The notes below the pieces were generated by a model, which worked only from the letters and a program-made list of their open reading frames with translations, searched no databases and had not been told where the DNA came from. DNA of 64,000 nucleotides from Allostella vacuolata (GTDB lineage: Bacteria > Pseudomonadota > Alphaproteobacteria > ATCC43930 > Allostellaceae), in NCBI GenBank assembly GCA_006739055.1, contig AP019702.1, positions 1,116,501 through 1,180,500 of the forward strand, written 5' to 3'. Both the position numbers and the translations under genes were made by a program. The first letter of the stretch is position 1. The number at the start of each line of letters is the position of its first letter. Shown here piece after piece: positions 8,483 to 12,934 of the stretch.

Positions 8483-9868
8483 ATGAGGTTTCCCCAACCC
8501 TGCCGAGCCGCCGGCCTTGCGGGCGCCGCCCAGCCCGTCACCCGGTCATGGCCGGCTGATTTCCGCTGGGGCGCCTCGACCTCGGCCTACCAGGTGGAAG
8601 GGGCGGCTGCAGCGGATGGGCGGGGCGCCAGCATCTGGGACACCCGCTCGCACCAGCCCGGCCGCATCGCCAACGGGGACACGGGCGATCAGGCCTGCGA
8701 CCACTACCACCGGTATGCCGAGGATATCGCCCTGATGCGGGAGATCGGCCTCGATGCCTACCGCTTCTCGGTCTCCTGGCCGCGGGTGCTTCCGCTCGGC
8801 CGGGGCCAGGTCAACCCGGCCGGCCTCGATTTCTACGACCGGCTGGTGGACGGGCTGCTGGCCGCGCGGATCGAGCCCTGGCTCTGCCTCTACCACTGGG
8901 ACCTGCCGCAGGCGCTGCAGGACCAGGGCGGCTGGACCCGGCGCGACAGCGCCGGCTGGTTCGCCGACTATGCGGTGCTGATCGCCCGCCGCCTCGGCGA
9001 CCGGGTGAAGCGCTTCGCCACCTTCAACGAGCCGTCGGTGTTCACCCTCTTCGGCTACGTGCTCGACTGGCAGGCGCCGGGCGTCATCGACCGCGACGCC
9101 TATCTGGCGGCCATGCACCACGTCAACCTGGCGCACGGCGCCGCGGTCGACGTCCTGCGCGACCTGGTGCCCGACGCGCGGATCGGGGCGATCCACAACC
9201 GACAACCCTGCCGGCCGGCCGGGCCGGCGGACGGGGCGGCGGCCGCGATGTTCGATGCCTGCTGGAACCGGGCCTTTCCCGATGGCCAGATCCTGGGCGC
9301 ATATCCGGCGGAACTGGTCGACGAGGTCGCGCCGTGGGTGCAGCCCGGGGACCTGGCCCGGATCTGCCGGCCGACCGACTGGTTCGGGCTCAACCACTAC
9401 TCGCCCATCTATATCCAGGCGGACCTGGACGCGGTGCTGGGCTTCGCCTGGGGCGCGCCGCCGGCGGAGCGCCCGCAGACGGATGTCGGCTGGGTCATCG
9501 ATGCGGATGCGTTCCGGGACACCCTGACCGACGTGCATCGAACCTACCGGCTGCCGATCTACGTCACCGAGAACGGCTATGGCGGGACGGACGCGCCCGA
9601 TGCGGCCGGGGCCGTGCACGATCCCGAGCGCATCGGCTATCTGCGGGCCTACATCCGGGCGATGGGCGAGGCGATGGACCGGGGCGCCGATGTCCGCGGC
9701 TATTTCGTCTGGTCGCTGCTCGACAATTTCGAGTGGGGGTCGGGCTATTCGCAGCGCTTCGGCATCGTCCATGTCGACTACGCGTCCCAGCGGCGCACGT
9801 TGAAGTCGTCGGCACGCTGGTATGCCGACCAGATCCGGGCCAGCCGCGTCCCGACCACCTCCGCCTGA
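8483..9868 (+). CDS. Beta-glucosidase, glycoside hydrolase family 1
   Basis: This 461-residue protein has the complete GH1 barrel. The entry motif is FRWGASTSAYQVEGA, the acid/base glutamate is Glu183 in TFNEPS, the nucleophile is Glu363 in YVTENGYGG, and the aglycone-side motif is WSLLDNFEWGSGYSQRFG. It hydrolyses beta-linked glucosides or galactosides. No convincing signal peptide is present, although the first ~25 residues are a non-catalytic leader, so cytoplasmic action is likely. GGAG precedes the ATG. Six bases separate it from the next gene, an ABC protein, suggesting co-transcription. The 187 bases upstream show no clear promoter to me. Confidence 0.92.
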   Translation: MRFPQPCRAAGLAGAAQPVTRSWPADFRWGASTSAYQVEGAAAADGRGASIWDTRSHQPGRIANGDTGDQACDHYHRYAEDIALMREIGLDAYRFSVSWPRVLPLGRGQVNPAGLDFYDRLVDGLLAARIEPWLCLYHWDLPQALQDQGGWTRRDSAGWFADYAVLIARRLGDRVKRFATFNEPSVFTLFGYVLDWQAPGVIDRDAYLAAMHHVNLAHGAAVDVLRDLVPDARIGAIHNRQPCRPAGPADGAAAAMFDACWNRAFPDGQILGAYPAELVDEVAPWVQPGDLARICRPTDWFGLNHYSPIYIQADLDAVLGFAWGAPPAERPQTDVGWVIDADAFRDTLTDVHRTYRLPIYVTENGYGGTDAPDAAGAVHDPERIGYLRAYIRAMGEAMDRGADVRGYFVWSLLDNFEWGSGYSQRFGIVHVDYASQRRTLKSSARWYADQIRASRVPTTSA

Positions 9869-9874
9869 TCCCCG

Positions 9875-11746
9875 ATGACTGCGATCCCGCCGCCCGAGCC
9901 CATGCCGCAGGCATCCCCGCTTGCGGCGGCGGGGGCGTCGATGGGGGGAACCCTGCGGCGGTTCGCACGGCTCGCGGGGGGCTACTGGACCGGATCGGAG
10001 CGGTGGAGCGCATGCCTGCTGACCGCGCTCCTGGTCGCTTTCGGCATTCTCCAGATCCTCCTGGTGATCCGCCTCAACCTGTGGAGCGCCGACCTGTTCG
10101 ATGCGCTGGAGCGGCGGGACGCGCGCGAGGTCCTGGTGCAGTCGGCCGTGTTCGCCGCCATCGTGGCCGGCACCATGGCCGTGAACGCGGCGCACCTGGA
10201 GGCGCGGCGACGCCTGCAGATGGCCTGGCGGCGCTGGCTGACGATGCGGGTGGGCGACGGCTGGCTGGATCGCGGGCGCCAGCACCAGCTGACCCTCGTG
10301 CCGGGCGCCCCCGGCAACCCCGACGCCCGGATCGCCGACGACATCCGCGTGGCGACCGAGGCGTCGATCGAGCTGGCGAACTCGCTCTTCTACTGCGTGC
10401 TGCTGCTCGGCAGCTTCGTCAGCATCCTCTGGGGCCTGTCCGGAACCGTCCGCCTGGCGCTGGGCGGGATCGATCTGGCGGTGCCGGGGTATCTGGTCGG
10501 CCTGGCCTTCGTCTATGCGGGGGTCGGGGTCGCGGTGGCCTTCCTGCTCGGCCGCACCCTCGTCCAGGTCACCGACCTGCGGCAGAGCGCCGAGGCGGGC
10601 TATCGGTCGGGCCTCTTCCGCGACCTCGAGCAGGCCGAGACGATCGCCCTGCTGGCCGGCGAAGGCAACGAGCGGCAGCGGCTGCGCGCCCTGTTCCAGG
10701 CGATCGTCGCCTCCTGGCGGCTCCAGACCCGCGGCCTGCGCCGCCTGACGCTCTTCACCTCCGCCTACGGGACGATGTCGGCGATGTTCCCGATCCTGGT
10801 CGCGGCCCCGCGCTACCTCGCGGGCGACCTTACGCTGGGGGGATTGGTGCAGACGGCCCAGGCCTTCCAGCAGGTCACCGCGGCCCTGTCCTGGCCCATC
10901 GACAACTTCCCGCGGCTGGCGGAGACGGTGGCGTCGATGGAGCGGGTGCTGGTCCTCCAGCATGCGGTGGACACGATCGGGGCCGAGGTCGGGCGTCCGG
11001 GGCTGGCGATCGATGTCGCGGCGGTGAGCGGCAGCTCGCTCACCTTCATCGACCTCACCATCGCCGATGCCGACGGCGGGATCCTGTTCTCCGGAATATC
11101 GACCGAGATCCGGCCGGGCGAGCGGGTCCTGCTGCTGGGCGACCCGCGGCTCGCGCGCGCGCTGTTCAAGGTCGTTGCCCGGGTGTGGCCGTGGGGGCGC
11201 GGACGGGTGGAGCTGCCGGACGATGCCGCCATCCACTTCCTGCCGGCATCCCTCCACCTGCCGGCCGATACGCTGCGCGCGATCCTGGCCTACCCCGACG
11301 AACCGGGGATGTTCGACCAGGCGGCCTGCGTCCAGGCGCTCGCCCGCGTCGGCCTGGGCGATCTCGGTCCCCGCCTCGACAGTCCGGGGGACTGGATGCG
11401 CCAGCTCGACCCCTCGCAGCGGCAGCGGGCCGGCTTCGCGCGGATCCTGCTGAAGCGGCCGAGCTGGATCTTCCTGGAGGAACCGGGAGAGGCGCTCGAC
11501 ACCGCGGCCGAACTGGCCCTGATGCAGGTGATCGCCGAGGCGCTGCCGGCGGCGACCCTGATCACCGCCTCCCACCATGGGGAGCTGGAGGCGTTCTACG
11601 GCCGCACCCTGCGCCTGGAGCCGGCGGCCGATGGCCGCGTCTTCGTTCGCGACAGCGGCGGCCGCGCCCCTGCCGGCGAGAAGATCCGCCCGGCCTGGCC
11701 GGCGATCGAGGTGATCCGCCGCGGCTTCGGCGAAGGGCCGGGCTGA
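9875..11746 (+). CDS. BacA/BclA (SbmA/YddA)-like ABC protein with a degenerate nucleotide-binding domain
   Basis: The 623 residues comprise an N-terminal membrane domain (about 25-350, ABC_membrane_2 type, with YWTGSERW, NLWSADLFDALERRD and the EAGYRSGLFRDLEQAE cytoplasmic loop) and a C-terminal ATPase-like domain (about 390-600). The second domain keeps family landmarks such as WPWGRGRV but has lost catalytic motifs. The P-loop position (near residue 422) reads GDPRLARAL instead of GxxGxGK(S/T). The signature reads LDPSQRQR and Walker B reads IFLEEP. Relatives import peptides and acylated lipids. Here ATP hydrolysis at canonical sites is unlikely. It follows the GH1 gene by six bases. Confidence 0.8.
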   Translation: MTAIPPPEPMPQASPLAAAGASMGGTLRRFARLAGGYWTGSERWSACLLTALLVAFGILQILLVIRLNLWSADLFDALERRDAREVLVQSAVFAAIVAGTMAVNAAHLEARRRLQMAWRRWLTMRVGDGWLDRGRQHQLTLVPGAPGNPDARIADDIRVATEASIELANSLFYCVLLLGSFVSILWGLSGTVRLALGGIDLAVPGYLVGLAFVYAGVGVAVAFLLGRTLVQVTDLRQSAEAGYRSGLFRDLEQAETIALLAGEGNERQRLRALFQAIVASWRLQTRGLRRLTLFTSAYGTMSAMFPILVAAPRYLAGDLTLGGLVQTAQAFQQVTAALSWPIDNFPRLAETVASMERVLVLQHAVDTIGAEVGRPGLAIDVAAVSGSSLTFIDLTIADADGGILFSGISTEIRPGERVLLLGDPRLARALFKVVARVWPWGRGRVELPDDAAIHFLPASLHLPADTLRAILAYPDEPGMFDQAACVQALARVGLGDLGPRLDSPGDWMRQLDPSQRQRAGFARILLKRPSWIFLEEPGEALDTAAELALMQVIAEALPAATLITASHHGELEAFYGRTLRLEPAADGRVFVRDSGGRAPAGEKIRPAWPAIEVIRRGFGEGPG

Positions 11747-11782: not shown

Positions 11783-12934
11783 TCAGGTCCCGAAGCCGCC
11801 GTCGGGCTGGCGCGGGCCGAACAGGCGCGCCAGGTCCGCCTCGTCGAACGCGGCCGGCTCCGGCTCCGGTCCGGCGGGCGGGGGGCCGCGATGGAAGCGG
11901 ATCTCCCAGGCCGAGAAGCCCGACACGAAGAAGCGCATGGTGCCGCCGCCCCGCCGGTCGCTGCCCAGCGGCGCGATCGCCTCAGGGTACCAGATGGCGC
12001 CGCGGACCAGCACCCGCGGTCGGGTCCAGCCGCCGGGGTCGCCGGCGTCGCGGTTGAAGGACACTTCCACGGCACGCTGCGTCAGGGTCCGGTCGCCGTC
12101 ATAGGTCCGGTTGAGCAGCATGACGAAGCCGCCGGTGTCGCTGTTCTCGTGGACGGCCGGGCCCCAGTGGGCGTCCGGGTCGGCATGCCGCCATCCCCGC
12201 GCCGGGCGGATGATCGGCTGGGGAAGGGATCGGTGGCGCGGCTGCCAGCCGTCCGCCGTCCACCATTCGAGCGCCGCGGCGGGTGCGTCACGGTCGCGGA
12301 TCGGGTAGCGGGCGACCACGATGCCCTGGGCCGCGTCCAGGGCGTGGTAGCTGGTCAGGTGGATCAGGAAGAAGGTCCCGGCCCGGTCGGGGATCACGGT
12401 GAAGTCGCCGAAGCCGCCGGCGAACCAGCCATTGTCGAAGGTGCAGTCCAGCTCGTCCGGCTGCGGGGCCAGCACCGGACCCAGGTCGTGCCAGCTGGCC
12501 CCGTCGTCGCGGGAGACGAGCGCGCCGATCCGATAGGCGGCGATGGTCCGCGGGCAGGGGGCGGGCGCCTCGCAATGGTACCAGCCATAGAGCGCCCCGT
12601 CCGGCGACCGCCAGAGCGATTCGATCCATTTCCCCGCGCCGGGGTCCGGATCGTCGACGATCCGGACCGGCTCGCCCGGGGCTGCGAACCGGAAAGGGGG
12701 GTGGCCGACCCGCCGGTGGCTGTGTCCGATCGGCACGAAATGGGCCGGCATCGCCAGGGTCCGGTCCCCTTCTGTCAGGACCGGGGTGTTGCAGTCGGCG
12801 CGATGGAGCGGCGGCGCGTGGAGCCGCAGGGGCGGGGCCGTCCGCCATTCGACGTGGACGCCGGCGTTGCGGTCCCACAGGATGGTGCGCCAGGGCCCGC
12901 GCATCTCGGGCGCGCCCGCGGGCCCGGGCCCCAT
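11783..12934 (-). CDS. Beta-propeller glycosidase-like protein of unknown function
   Basis: The 383-residue protein resembles five-bladed propeller glycosidases (GH43/GH130/sialidase-like folds). It has blade-like repeats of the form SPDGALYGWYHCE, GALVSRDDGASWHDLG (an Asp-box-like element) and DNGWFAGGFGDFTVIPD. No signal peptide is visible. I cannot identify the exact family or assign catalytic acids. The ATG at 12934 overlaps the TGA of the upstream CBS-BON gene (TGATG), so the two should be translationally coupled, an unusual pairing of a redox/energy-sensing protein with a carbohydrate-type enzyme. Confidence 0.6.
   Translation of the reverse strand: MGPGPAGAPEMRGPWRTILWDRNAGVHVEWRTAPPLRLHAPPLHRADCNTPVLTEGDRTLAMPAHFVPIGHSHRRVGHPPFRFAAPGEPVRIVDDPDPGAGKWIESLWRSPDGALYGWYHCEAPAPCPRTIAAYRIGALVSRDDGASWHDLGPVLAPQPDELDCTFDNGWFAGGFGDFTVIPDRAGTFFLIHLTSYHALDAAQGIVVARYPIRDRDAPAAALEWWTADGWQPRHRSLPQPIIRPARGWRHADPDAHWGPAVHENSDTGGFVMLLNRTYDGDRTLTQRAVEVSFNRDAGDPGGWTRPRVLVRGAIWYPEAIAPLGSDRRGGGTMRFFVSGFSAWEIRFHRGPPPAGPEPEPAAFDEADLARLFGPRQPDGGFGT

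Follow-up and report, generated by a model that had tools for sequence, protein, structure and literature searches.

The gene and its predicted fold

The window analysed here, a stretch of 64,000 nucleotides of Allostella vacuolata (contig AP019702.1, positions 1,116,501 to 1,180,500), carries on its forward strand a gene for a half-transporter of the ATP-binding cassette (ABC) type whose nucleotide-binding domain (NBD) lacks a canonical ATP site. The gene was delimited at 9875..11746 (+, stop included) from its open reading frame (ORF), Pfam matches and homologues, and translation of 9875-11743 gives a stop-free protein of 623 amino acids. Its membrane domain (residues 28-368; 9956..10978, +) matches PF06472 and PF05992, both above the Pfam cut-off, and the coupling loops IL1 and IL2 of this domain are as long as in ATP-driven relatives. 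No match to Pfam ABC_tran was found in the protein at E 0.01, and NCBIfam ABC-protein profiles match its ATPase domain, but below their cut-offs.

The AlphaFold2 model, built from a 61-sequence alignment, is a complete half-transporter (mean pLDDT 87.3 over the whole model) in which about residues 380-596 fold as an NBD, and a six-helix type IV membrane domain and an NBD fold are thus combined in one chain. From this model and from Foldseek and VIA-align matches to Rv1819c and ABCD proteins, the NBD was assigned to residues 385-596 (11027..11662, +). Rv1819c, the mycobacterial cobalamin transporter of the BacA/BclA type (6tqe), is the top sequence match in the PDB (E 4e-51) and the top Foldseek match (TM 0.75), and VIA-align superposes 560 residues at Z 25.4, root-mean-square deviation (rmsd) 3.3 and 26% identity. 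It shares the two-domain layout of the window protein; however, it has its own P-loop GxxGxGK and signature LSPGEQQR, and the window protein has neither. ABCD folds are also among the closest structural matches: the Z score of Rv1819c is tied with those of ABCD1 and ABCD4, and many type IV ABC families score alike, which places the fold but not the function. The same membrane and ATPase domains make up the half-ABC proteins BclA and YddA, whose ATP site is canonical; restoration of peptide import in a bacA mutant is a mark of BclA (assay in PMC12003926). In summary, the window protein belongs to the half-ABC proteins of the YddA/BclA/Rv1819c type, and its ATPase domain is folded but dismantled. 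The closest named relative of the window among the loci collected is Stella sp. ATCC 35155, and the intact relative in the window's own genome is 35% identical to the protein.

Loss of the canonical ATP site

The sequence-only reading had taken the protein for BacA/BclA-like with a dead ATPase domain, and this was right, in that the canonical motifs are gone and the NBD fold is kept in the model. The changes it named in the P-loop, signature and Walker B were all found where it had placed them. The degenerate Walker A is GDPRLARAL (residues 422-430; 11138..11164, +), with a gap in the lysine column of the alignment; the Q-loop position (residue 458; 11246..11248, +) is Ala; the degenerate signature, read from translation and alignment, is LDPSQRQR (residues 511-518; 11405..11428, +); and in the degenerate Walker B, WIFLEE (residues 531-536; 11465..11482, +), Glu535 replaces Asp and Glu536 is kept.

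We aligned 135 family rows, including the window protein, from GTDB genomes, relatives and plasmids. The P-loop dipeptide GK is missing from 81 rows and present in 50; of the other four rows, two end at a contig border and two lack an NBD. Since the dead and intact classes are defined by GK itself, the actual test of the grouping is a shared gap together with the tree. In all 81 rows without GK the lysine column holds a one-residue gap and not a substitution, and compared with intact relatives the later P-loop Gly and Ser/Thr are gone as well. Two contig-end loci (L053 and L080) stand outside the 81, though both show GDPxAA, and L020, whose frame is interrupted, was kept out of the motif, tree and GH1 (glycoside hydrolase family 1) counts. 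The Walker B Asp is kept in a single dead row (1 of 81). The same gap occurs in orthologues at 81%, 65% and 56% identity from three other genomes of the same genus, and its presence in every dead row, these included, argues against both chance and error.

An engineered counterpart exists in the multidrug exporter LmrA, where deletion of the Walker A lysine takes away the very residue lost here and leaves the other parts of the ATP site as they were; 4% of the ATPase activity is left (PMC6155054).

As a separate observation, the S. meliloti pSymB locus L154:1893-3713 carries an annotated ABC transporter, possibly ExsE, that keeps the P-loop GK, has the unusual signature LGDDEQRLL and lacks the H-loop His.

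Origin, spread and selection of the dead clade

For trees and conservation, near-identical rows were thinned. A tree of 51 thinned rows, calculated from membrane-domain columns only, unites the 25 dead rows and the 2 contig-cut rows in one clade (support 100/99) without a single intact row inside, and a wider row set gives the clade 100/100. Hence the dead-NBD clade, with its shared deletion of the lysine codon, firmly has a single origin. It stands apart from the intact group to which the window genome's own paralogue belongs, in a tree that did not include an experimentally studied BclA. The members come from Stella, Magnetospirillum, Azospirillum, Telmatospirillum, Neoroseomonas, Ferrovibrio, the gammaproteobacterium Plasticicumulans and a few other metagenome-assembled genomes (MAGs). 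In an even draw across the class, 7 of 385 genomes (two from the window's genus) hold the clade at E 1e-138, a lower bound, as this cut-off was set to exclude intact relatives. In one genome, two dead-clade-like copies (L273 and L274; G488:C45:21113-25764) lie about 1.3 kb apart, the first showing GDPEAA.

Selection was measured as the ratio of nonsynonymous to synonymous substitution rates (dN/dS), pairwise and with our own Nei-Gojobori code. For 23 pairs of the dead clade the median is 0.153 in the NBD (maximum 0.485) and 0.128 in the membrane domain; for 13 pairs of intact relatives the corresponding medians are 0.214 and 0.222. The sequence-only reading had proposed collecting homologues with the same degenerate P-loop and testing their domain for selection, and with 81 such rows gathered, the dN/dS values indicate purifying selection. 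Where the domain changed is also informative. At ATP-contact positions the mean pairwise identity is 0.46 in the dead clade versus 0.87 in intact relatives (41 and 50 thinned rows), while in the rest of the NBD it is 0.47 versus 0.41. Conservation has been lost at the ATP contacts and kept elsewhere in the domain, indicating that the ATP site was abandoned and the domain retained.

A decaying gene or a sequencing error in the P-loop, the latter the refutation that the sequence-only reading had itself foreseen, was rejected. Nothing in the window points to a pseudogene, and one MAG homologue (L020) has an interrupted frame; the gap recurs in 81 of 81 rows from many assemblies, however, and dN/dS is below 0.5 in all 23 pairs, which leaves this explanation a negligible probability.

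Second family members and the question of a partner

A dead half-transporter might be completed by an ATP-competent half in an asymmetric heterodimer, as in exporters with one degenerate site. Many heterodimeric and full-length ABC proteins have a site of this sort (21 of 29 human ones; PMC7756269), and in ABCC and ABCB2/B3 proteins motifs are lost in a retained NBD as they are here, but one live site is kept in the asymmetric pair. We therefore weighed this explanation against the genome content of the clade. The named homologue loci are the best 80 of 98 (79 after L020 was dropped), and the genomes of 70 of these 80 loci were searched for family members at E 1e-25, the counts leaving out L003, L014, L016, L019, L020, L046, L053, L064, L072 and L080; in a batch of 50 genomes scoring was limited to the 25 best candidates of each genome, and MAGs may not be complete.

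At least one further family member of some kind is found in 39 of the 70 genomes, and all four genomes of the window's genus (Stella) hold one dead and one intact member each, which favours a partner. The 38 further rows from carrier genomes comprise 25 intact ones (GKS; 23 distinct genes), 9 without NBD and 4 dead. However, no second family member was detected at this threshold in 31 of the 70 genomes (8 of 20 and 23 of 50), among them several isolates, including those of Paramagnetospirillum, Caenispirillum, Novispirillum and Pararhodospirillum. An ATP-competent half of this type, though present in the window's genome, was thus not found in every carrier at E 1e-25, and on this search of 70 genomes an obligate live partner from the same family was rejected. 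Nor did the fetched flanks of the 79 named loci contain a second family ORF, a partner from another ABC family not having been searched for. In addition, the Walker A itself is lost here, a change that the part of PMC7756269 available names only for ABCG5/G8; the same part gives ABCD as the only human subfamily without a degenerate-site case. On balance, a heterodimer with a live half seems rather improbable.

Paralogues without an ATPase domain

In 9 of the 70 genomes a further protein was found whose match, at 48-50% identity, extends over residues 22-375 at most. The hosts are loci named Azospirillum or, once, Roseomonas genomospecies 6, and the ORFs are 358-399 amino acids long and end just past the membrane domain; no ATPase domain lies downstream in either of the two loci inspected for it. 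Six of the nine, placed in the tree, form one clade (100/99) within the Azospirillum part of the dead clade. Their dN/dS of 0.08-0.27 (5 pairs) indicates purifying selection, and both coupling loops are kept in 9 of 9. For one of them the predicted model is a complete domain of six helices (pLDDT 86.1), and SbmA is among the close structural matches of this model (Z 23.9, 308 residues, 22% identity, rmsd 2.7). Since these NBD-less paralogues lie inside the dead clade and are under selection, membrane domains of the clade persist without an ATPase domain.

This offshoot bears on the possibility that the domain is a pseudo-ATPase sensor, which would bind a nucleotide or another ligand without hydrolysis and gate the transporter. 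The replacement motif is itself conserved (Gly422 in 81 of 81 dead rows and Asp423 in 76, then Leu in 77 and Phe in 77), the domain is under purifying selection, and LmrA without its lysine still binds ATP (PMC6155054), all of which would suit a sensor. Within the clade, however, variation is seen at the Walker A, Walker B, Q-loop, signature and H-loop positions alike, and the Azospirillum paralogues dispense with the whole domain, so that we consider a sensor unlikely.

In three of the four NBD-less loci inspected (L249, L251 and L254) the gene is flanked by two conserved ORFs, in L249 a methyl-accepting chemotaxis protein and an HPP/CBS membrane protein. A further protein, from a Bradyrhizobium septentrionale plasmid (L152:2025-3131), is NBD-less as annotated (368 amino acids) and labelled SbmA/BacA-like; it groups not with SbmA but with intact relatives such as the window genome's paralogue, its precise position having moderate support, and perhaps represents another independent loss of the ATPase domain.

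Relation to SbmA/BacA

The proton-driven SbmA/BacA proteins (SLiPT) share the membrane fold of the window protein (9g3g; Z 22.3, 307 residues, rmsd 3.0) and, like it, have no ATP engine and carry Asp or Glu at the E193, E276 and E378 columns. They differ in having no NBD, an added TM0 and a full glutamate ladder (PMC13316013), whereas the window protein keeps a folded NBD in its model. The coupling loops differ as well: IL1 has 34 and IL2 31 amino acids in all 85 full-length dead rows of the set used for residue comparisons, and in SbmA they are shortened to 24 and 23.

A 2026 study infers that SbmA/BacA lost the ATPase domain of a YddA-like ancestor (PMC13316013); it describes a membrane domain and an NBD encoded by separate genes and offers NBD loss as a speculation, and the part of it available shows no intermediate with a retained dead domain. 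In our unrooted tree the SbmA branch joins between the YddA group and the remaining rows, away from the dead clade, so its NBD loss looks like a separate event, with caution because its branch is long (3.6 changes per column). Descent of SbmA from the dead clade is accordingly not supported. The sequence-only reading had called the protein an intermediate. This holds insofar as a single dead clade contains an NBD-less group, but the clade was probably not the route to SbmA/BacA itself. The other option of that reading, a pseudo-ATPase regulator, may be one role of the retained domain, and the shared lysine-codon deletion, the GH1 link and the missing second family member in many genomes go beyond what it had noticed.

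No description of the dead-NBD clade was found in the open-licence PMC literature, including the available parts of PMC13316013 and PMC12003926, whose trees or supplements may hold such sequences unremarked.

A GH1 beta-glucosidase gene beside the transporter

A GH1 beta-glucosidase gene (8483..9868, +) ends 6 bp upstream of the transporter gene. Its product scores 563.5 bits against TIGR03356 (curated cut-off 478.5) and contains the catalytic motifs NEP and TENG, and it is the only GH1 gene found in its genome at E 1e-20. Most loci of the clade have a GH1 gene close by. Among 81 dead-clade loci (79 named and 2 Stella), a GH1 gene lies within 4.5 kb in 57 and within 400 bp in 43, the latter comprising 20 upstream co-directed, 19 downstream convergent and 4 downstream co-directed genes. 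No GH1 gene lies within 4.5 kb of any of 23 intact BclA/YddA-type relatives; Fisher's p for this linkage, 2e-10, is overstated, as related loci were counted as independent.

The GH1 content of most control genomes was left unchecked, a point that weakens this contrast, and coordinates were therefore compared within 11 genomes containing a dead gene together with an intact paralogue and a GH1 gene (G000-G002, G045-G047, G050, G052, G055, G058 and G059). In all 11 a GH1 gene lies no more than 2.2 kb from the dead gene, and in 0 of 11 is one near the intact paralogue. Moreover, of 22 genomes checked for GH1, 15 have it near the dead gene (six of these with a single GH1 gene) and one locus is contig-cut. 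The GH1 genes near dead genes belong to two lineages, at about 65% and 46% identity to the window GH1, which together with the varied orientations argues for repeated retention of the link.

In a text test on the best GH1 match of 58 loci, NEP was found in 39 and E-N/S-G in 55, the rest being perhaps variants or cut. By eye, the GH1 N-termini inspected show no evident signal peptide, and the enzyme is probably cytoplasmic. Given the linkage and this probable location, the substrate would most likely be a beta-glucoside.

The linkage could also be read in a different way, with the protein as no transporter at all but a membrane scaffold or sensor, for example an anchor for the GH1 enzyme. That GH1 accompanies the dead domain and is absent beside the nine NBD-less paralogues agrees with such a role. 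On the other hand, the membrane domain is more conserved than the NBD (0.56 versus 0.47 identity in the dead clade; 0.44 versus 0.41 in intact relatives) and contains invariant polar residues, and some members have no GH1 nearby or in the genome; we hold a scaffold to be very improbable.

Polar residues and energy source

The ladder on which SbmA relies consists of six glutamates, E193, E203, E269, E276, E287 and E378 (PMC13316013), and at these columns the window protein has D155, I165, T233, E240, L251 and E350. A set of polar residues peculiar to the clade was found as well, in a row set where L214 duplicates the gene of L021. His107 in TM2 (10193..10195, +) occurs in 84 of 85 full-length dead rows, in 9 of 9 NBD-less paralogues and in 0 of 73 intact rows. 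In TM6, the Gln-rich segment QTAQAFQQ (10850..10873, +) contains Gln332 (85 of 85 versus 0 of 73 intact) and Gln329 (84 of 85 versus 8 of 73). R112 (85 of 85 versus 1 of 73) and Q284 (85 of 85 versus 0 of 73) behave alike, and His at position 169 is found in 61 of 85 versus 0 of 73, the window protein having Asn169. This set is compatible with ion coupling or a sugar-like substrate and proves neither. For comparison, ion-gradient-driven transport without nucleotide was reported for LmrA, its lysine-deletion mutant included (PMC6155054).

Interpretation

We consider, with a probability of roughly 0.6, that the protein would be a carrier no longer driven by ATP, in which the retained dead domain has a structural or regulatory role and which perhaps serves glucoside uptake. 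The losses in the ATP site would have come one after another, in an order that we infer. The NBD, folded in the prediction, under selection by its dN/dS and facing coupling loops of full length, would have stayed docked on the membrane domain. The protein would most likely be a homodimeric carrier, ion-coupled or facilitated, that works inwards by alternating access and uses no ATP. Its substrate would most likely be a hydrophilic beta-glucoside, whose cleavage by intracellular GH1 would pull uptake, and this is the weakest step. One Azospirillum group shows a further stage, with a paralogue from which the entire ATPase domain is gone.

Several observations weigh against this interpretation. 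The clade is uneven: Glu or Asp is kept at the catalytic position in 73 of 81 dead rows, the H-loop His in 27 (H567 in the window protein), an L-S/T-x-G-E/D-QQ-R/K signature in 13 and the second signature Gly in 21. As lysine-deleted LmrA binds ATP, loss of the lysine alone is no proof of lost binding. The median ratio of NBD to membrane-domain dN/dS is 1.22 in the dead clade versus 0.99 in intact relatives, and the dead NBD is, relative to its membrane domain, somewhat less constrained than intact NBDs. As to the substrate, GH1 is absent within 4.5 kb in 24 of 81 dead loci (some contig-cut) as well as from the surroundings of the NBD-less genes, and the 22 genomes mentioned above include 3 with one GH1 elsewhere and 3 Neoroseomonas without GH1. 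As to the energy source, at the E193 column the clade has Glu or Asp, E276 is matched, E378 is matched in most rows (Glu in 74 of 81), and E203, E269 and E287 have no counterpart; the residues kept are also present in ATP-driven relatives, and the NBD-less paralogues have Gln at the E378 column in 9 of 9. Because of this, the ladder is no argument for protons, and an SbmA-like glutamate ladder was rejected as proof of proton coupling.

A bolder version, which we put forward only tentatively and would not bet on at even odds, is that the clade might represent a second, independent and stepwise conversion of an ATP pump into a carrier. A live NBD would have become a dead one after a one-codon deletion, and then none in Azospirillum, with the membrane domain working throughout; the GH1-linked members would be driven by an ion gradient and glucoside hydrolysis, and the dead domain might be a platform for GH1.

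The clade bears on the origin of the proton-driven SbmA/BacA proteins from ATP-driven ABC ancestors and may show how an ATP-driven pump becomes a pump run on another energy source. Live, dead and domain-less relatives occur at close range, so that natural proteins allow tests of both the energy source and the succession of events, and the clade supplies a substrate lead. It also follows that the label “ABC transporter ATP-binding protein/permease”, given to the genes in L151, L160 and L161, can mislead on the energy source.

Other neighbours and minor observations

A scan for promoters and terminators gave no signal (0 and 1 sites versus 0.3 and 1.1 in shuffles). Downstream of the transporter gene, on the opposite strand, lies a conserved gene of about 360 amino acids with an uncertain start codon (11783..12874, -), which has no Pfam family over threshold. 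It is also found near the homologous transporter in six other loci (two Stella and four others), and 2 of 7 members of its family show weak similarity to DUF4185/BNR propellers; a profile of this propeller-like neighbour had no clear PDB match (best E 0.11) and none in plasmids. The Pfam domains of eight neighbours, from one locus each of Magnetospirillum, Neoroseomonas, Plasticicumulans and Caenispirillum, share no common functional thread. Other recurring neighbours are rarer or confined to one genus; one of them, a long ORF found at 13 of 83 loci, encodes a chemotaxis receptor in A. lipoferum, and the largest cluster of neighbour ORFs merged many families.

Some loci have peculiarities around the glycosidase. 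In Paramagnetospirillum caucaseum SO-1 (L004), the GH1 gene (G041:C2:146355-147661) matches in two separate pieces and is maybe broken or misassembled. The A. lipoferum loci also contain a GH4 glycosidase. On two Azospirillum brasilense plasmids (L151 and L161), the dead transporter is near GH1 together with a family 2 glycosyltransferase, a DUF6212 protein and a TPR protein, a grouping that is possibly a glycan-related cluster.

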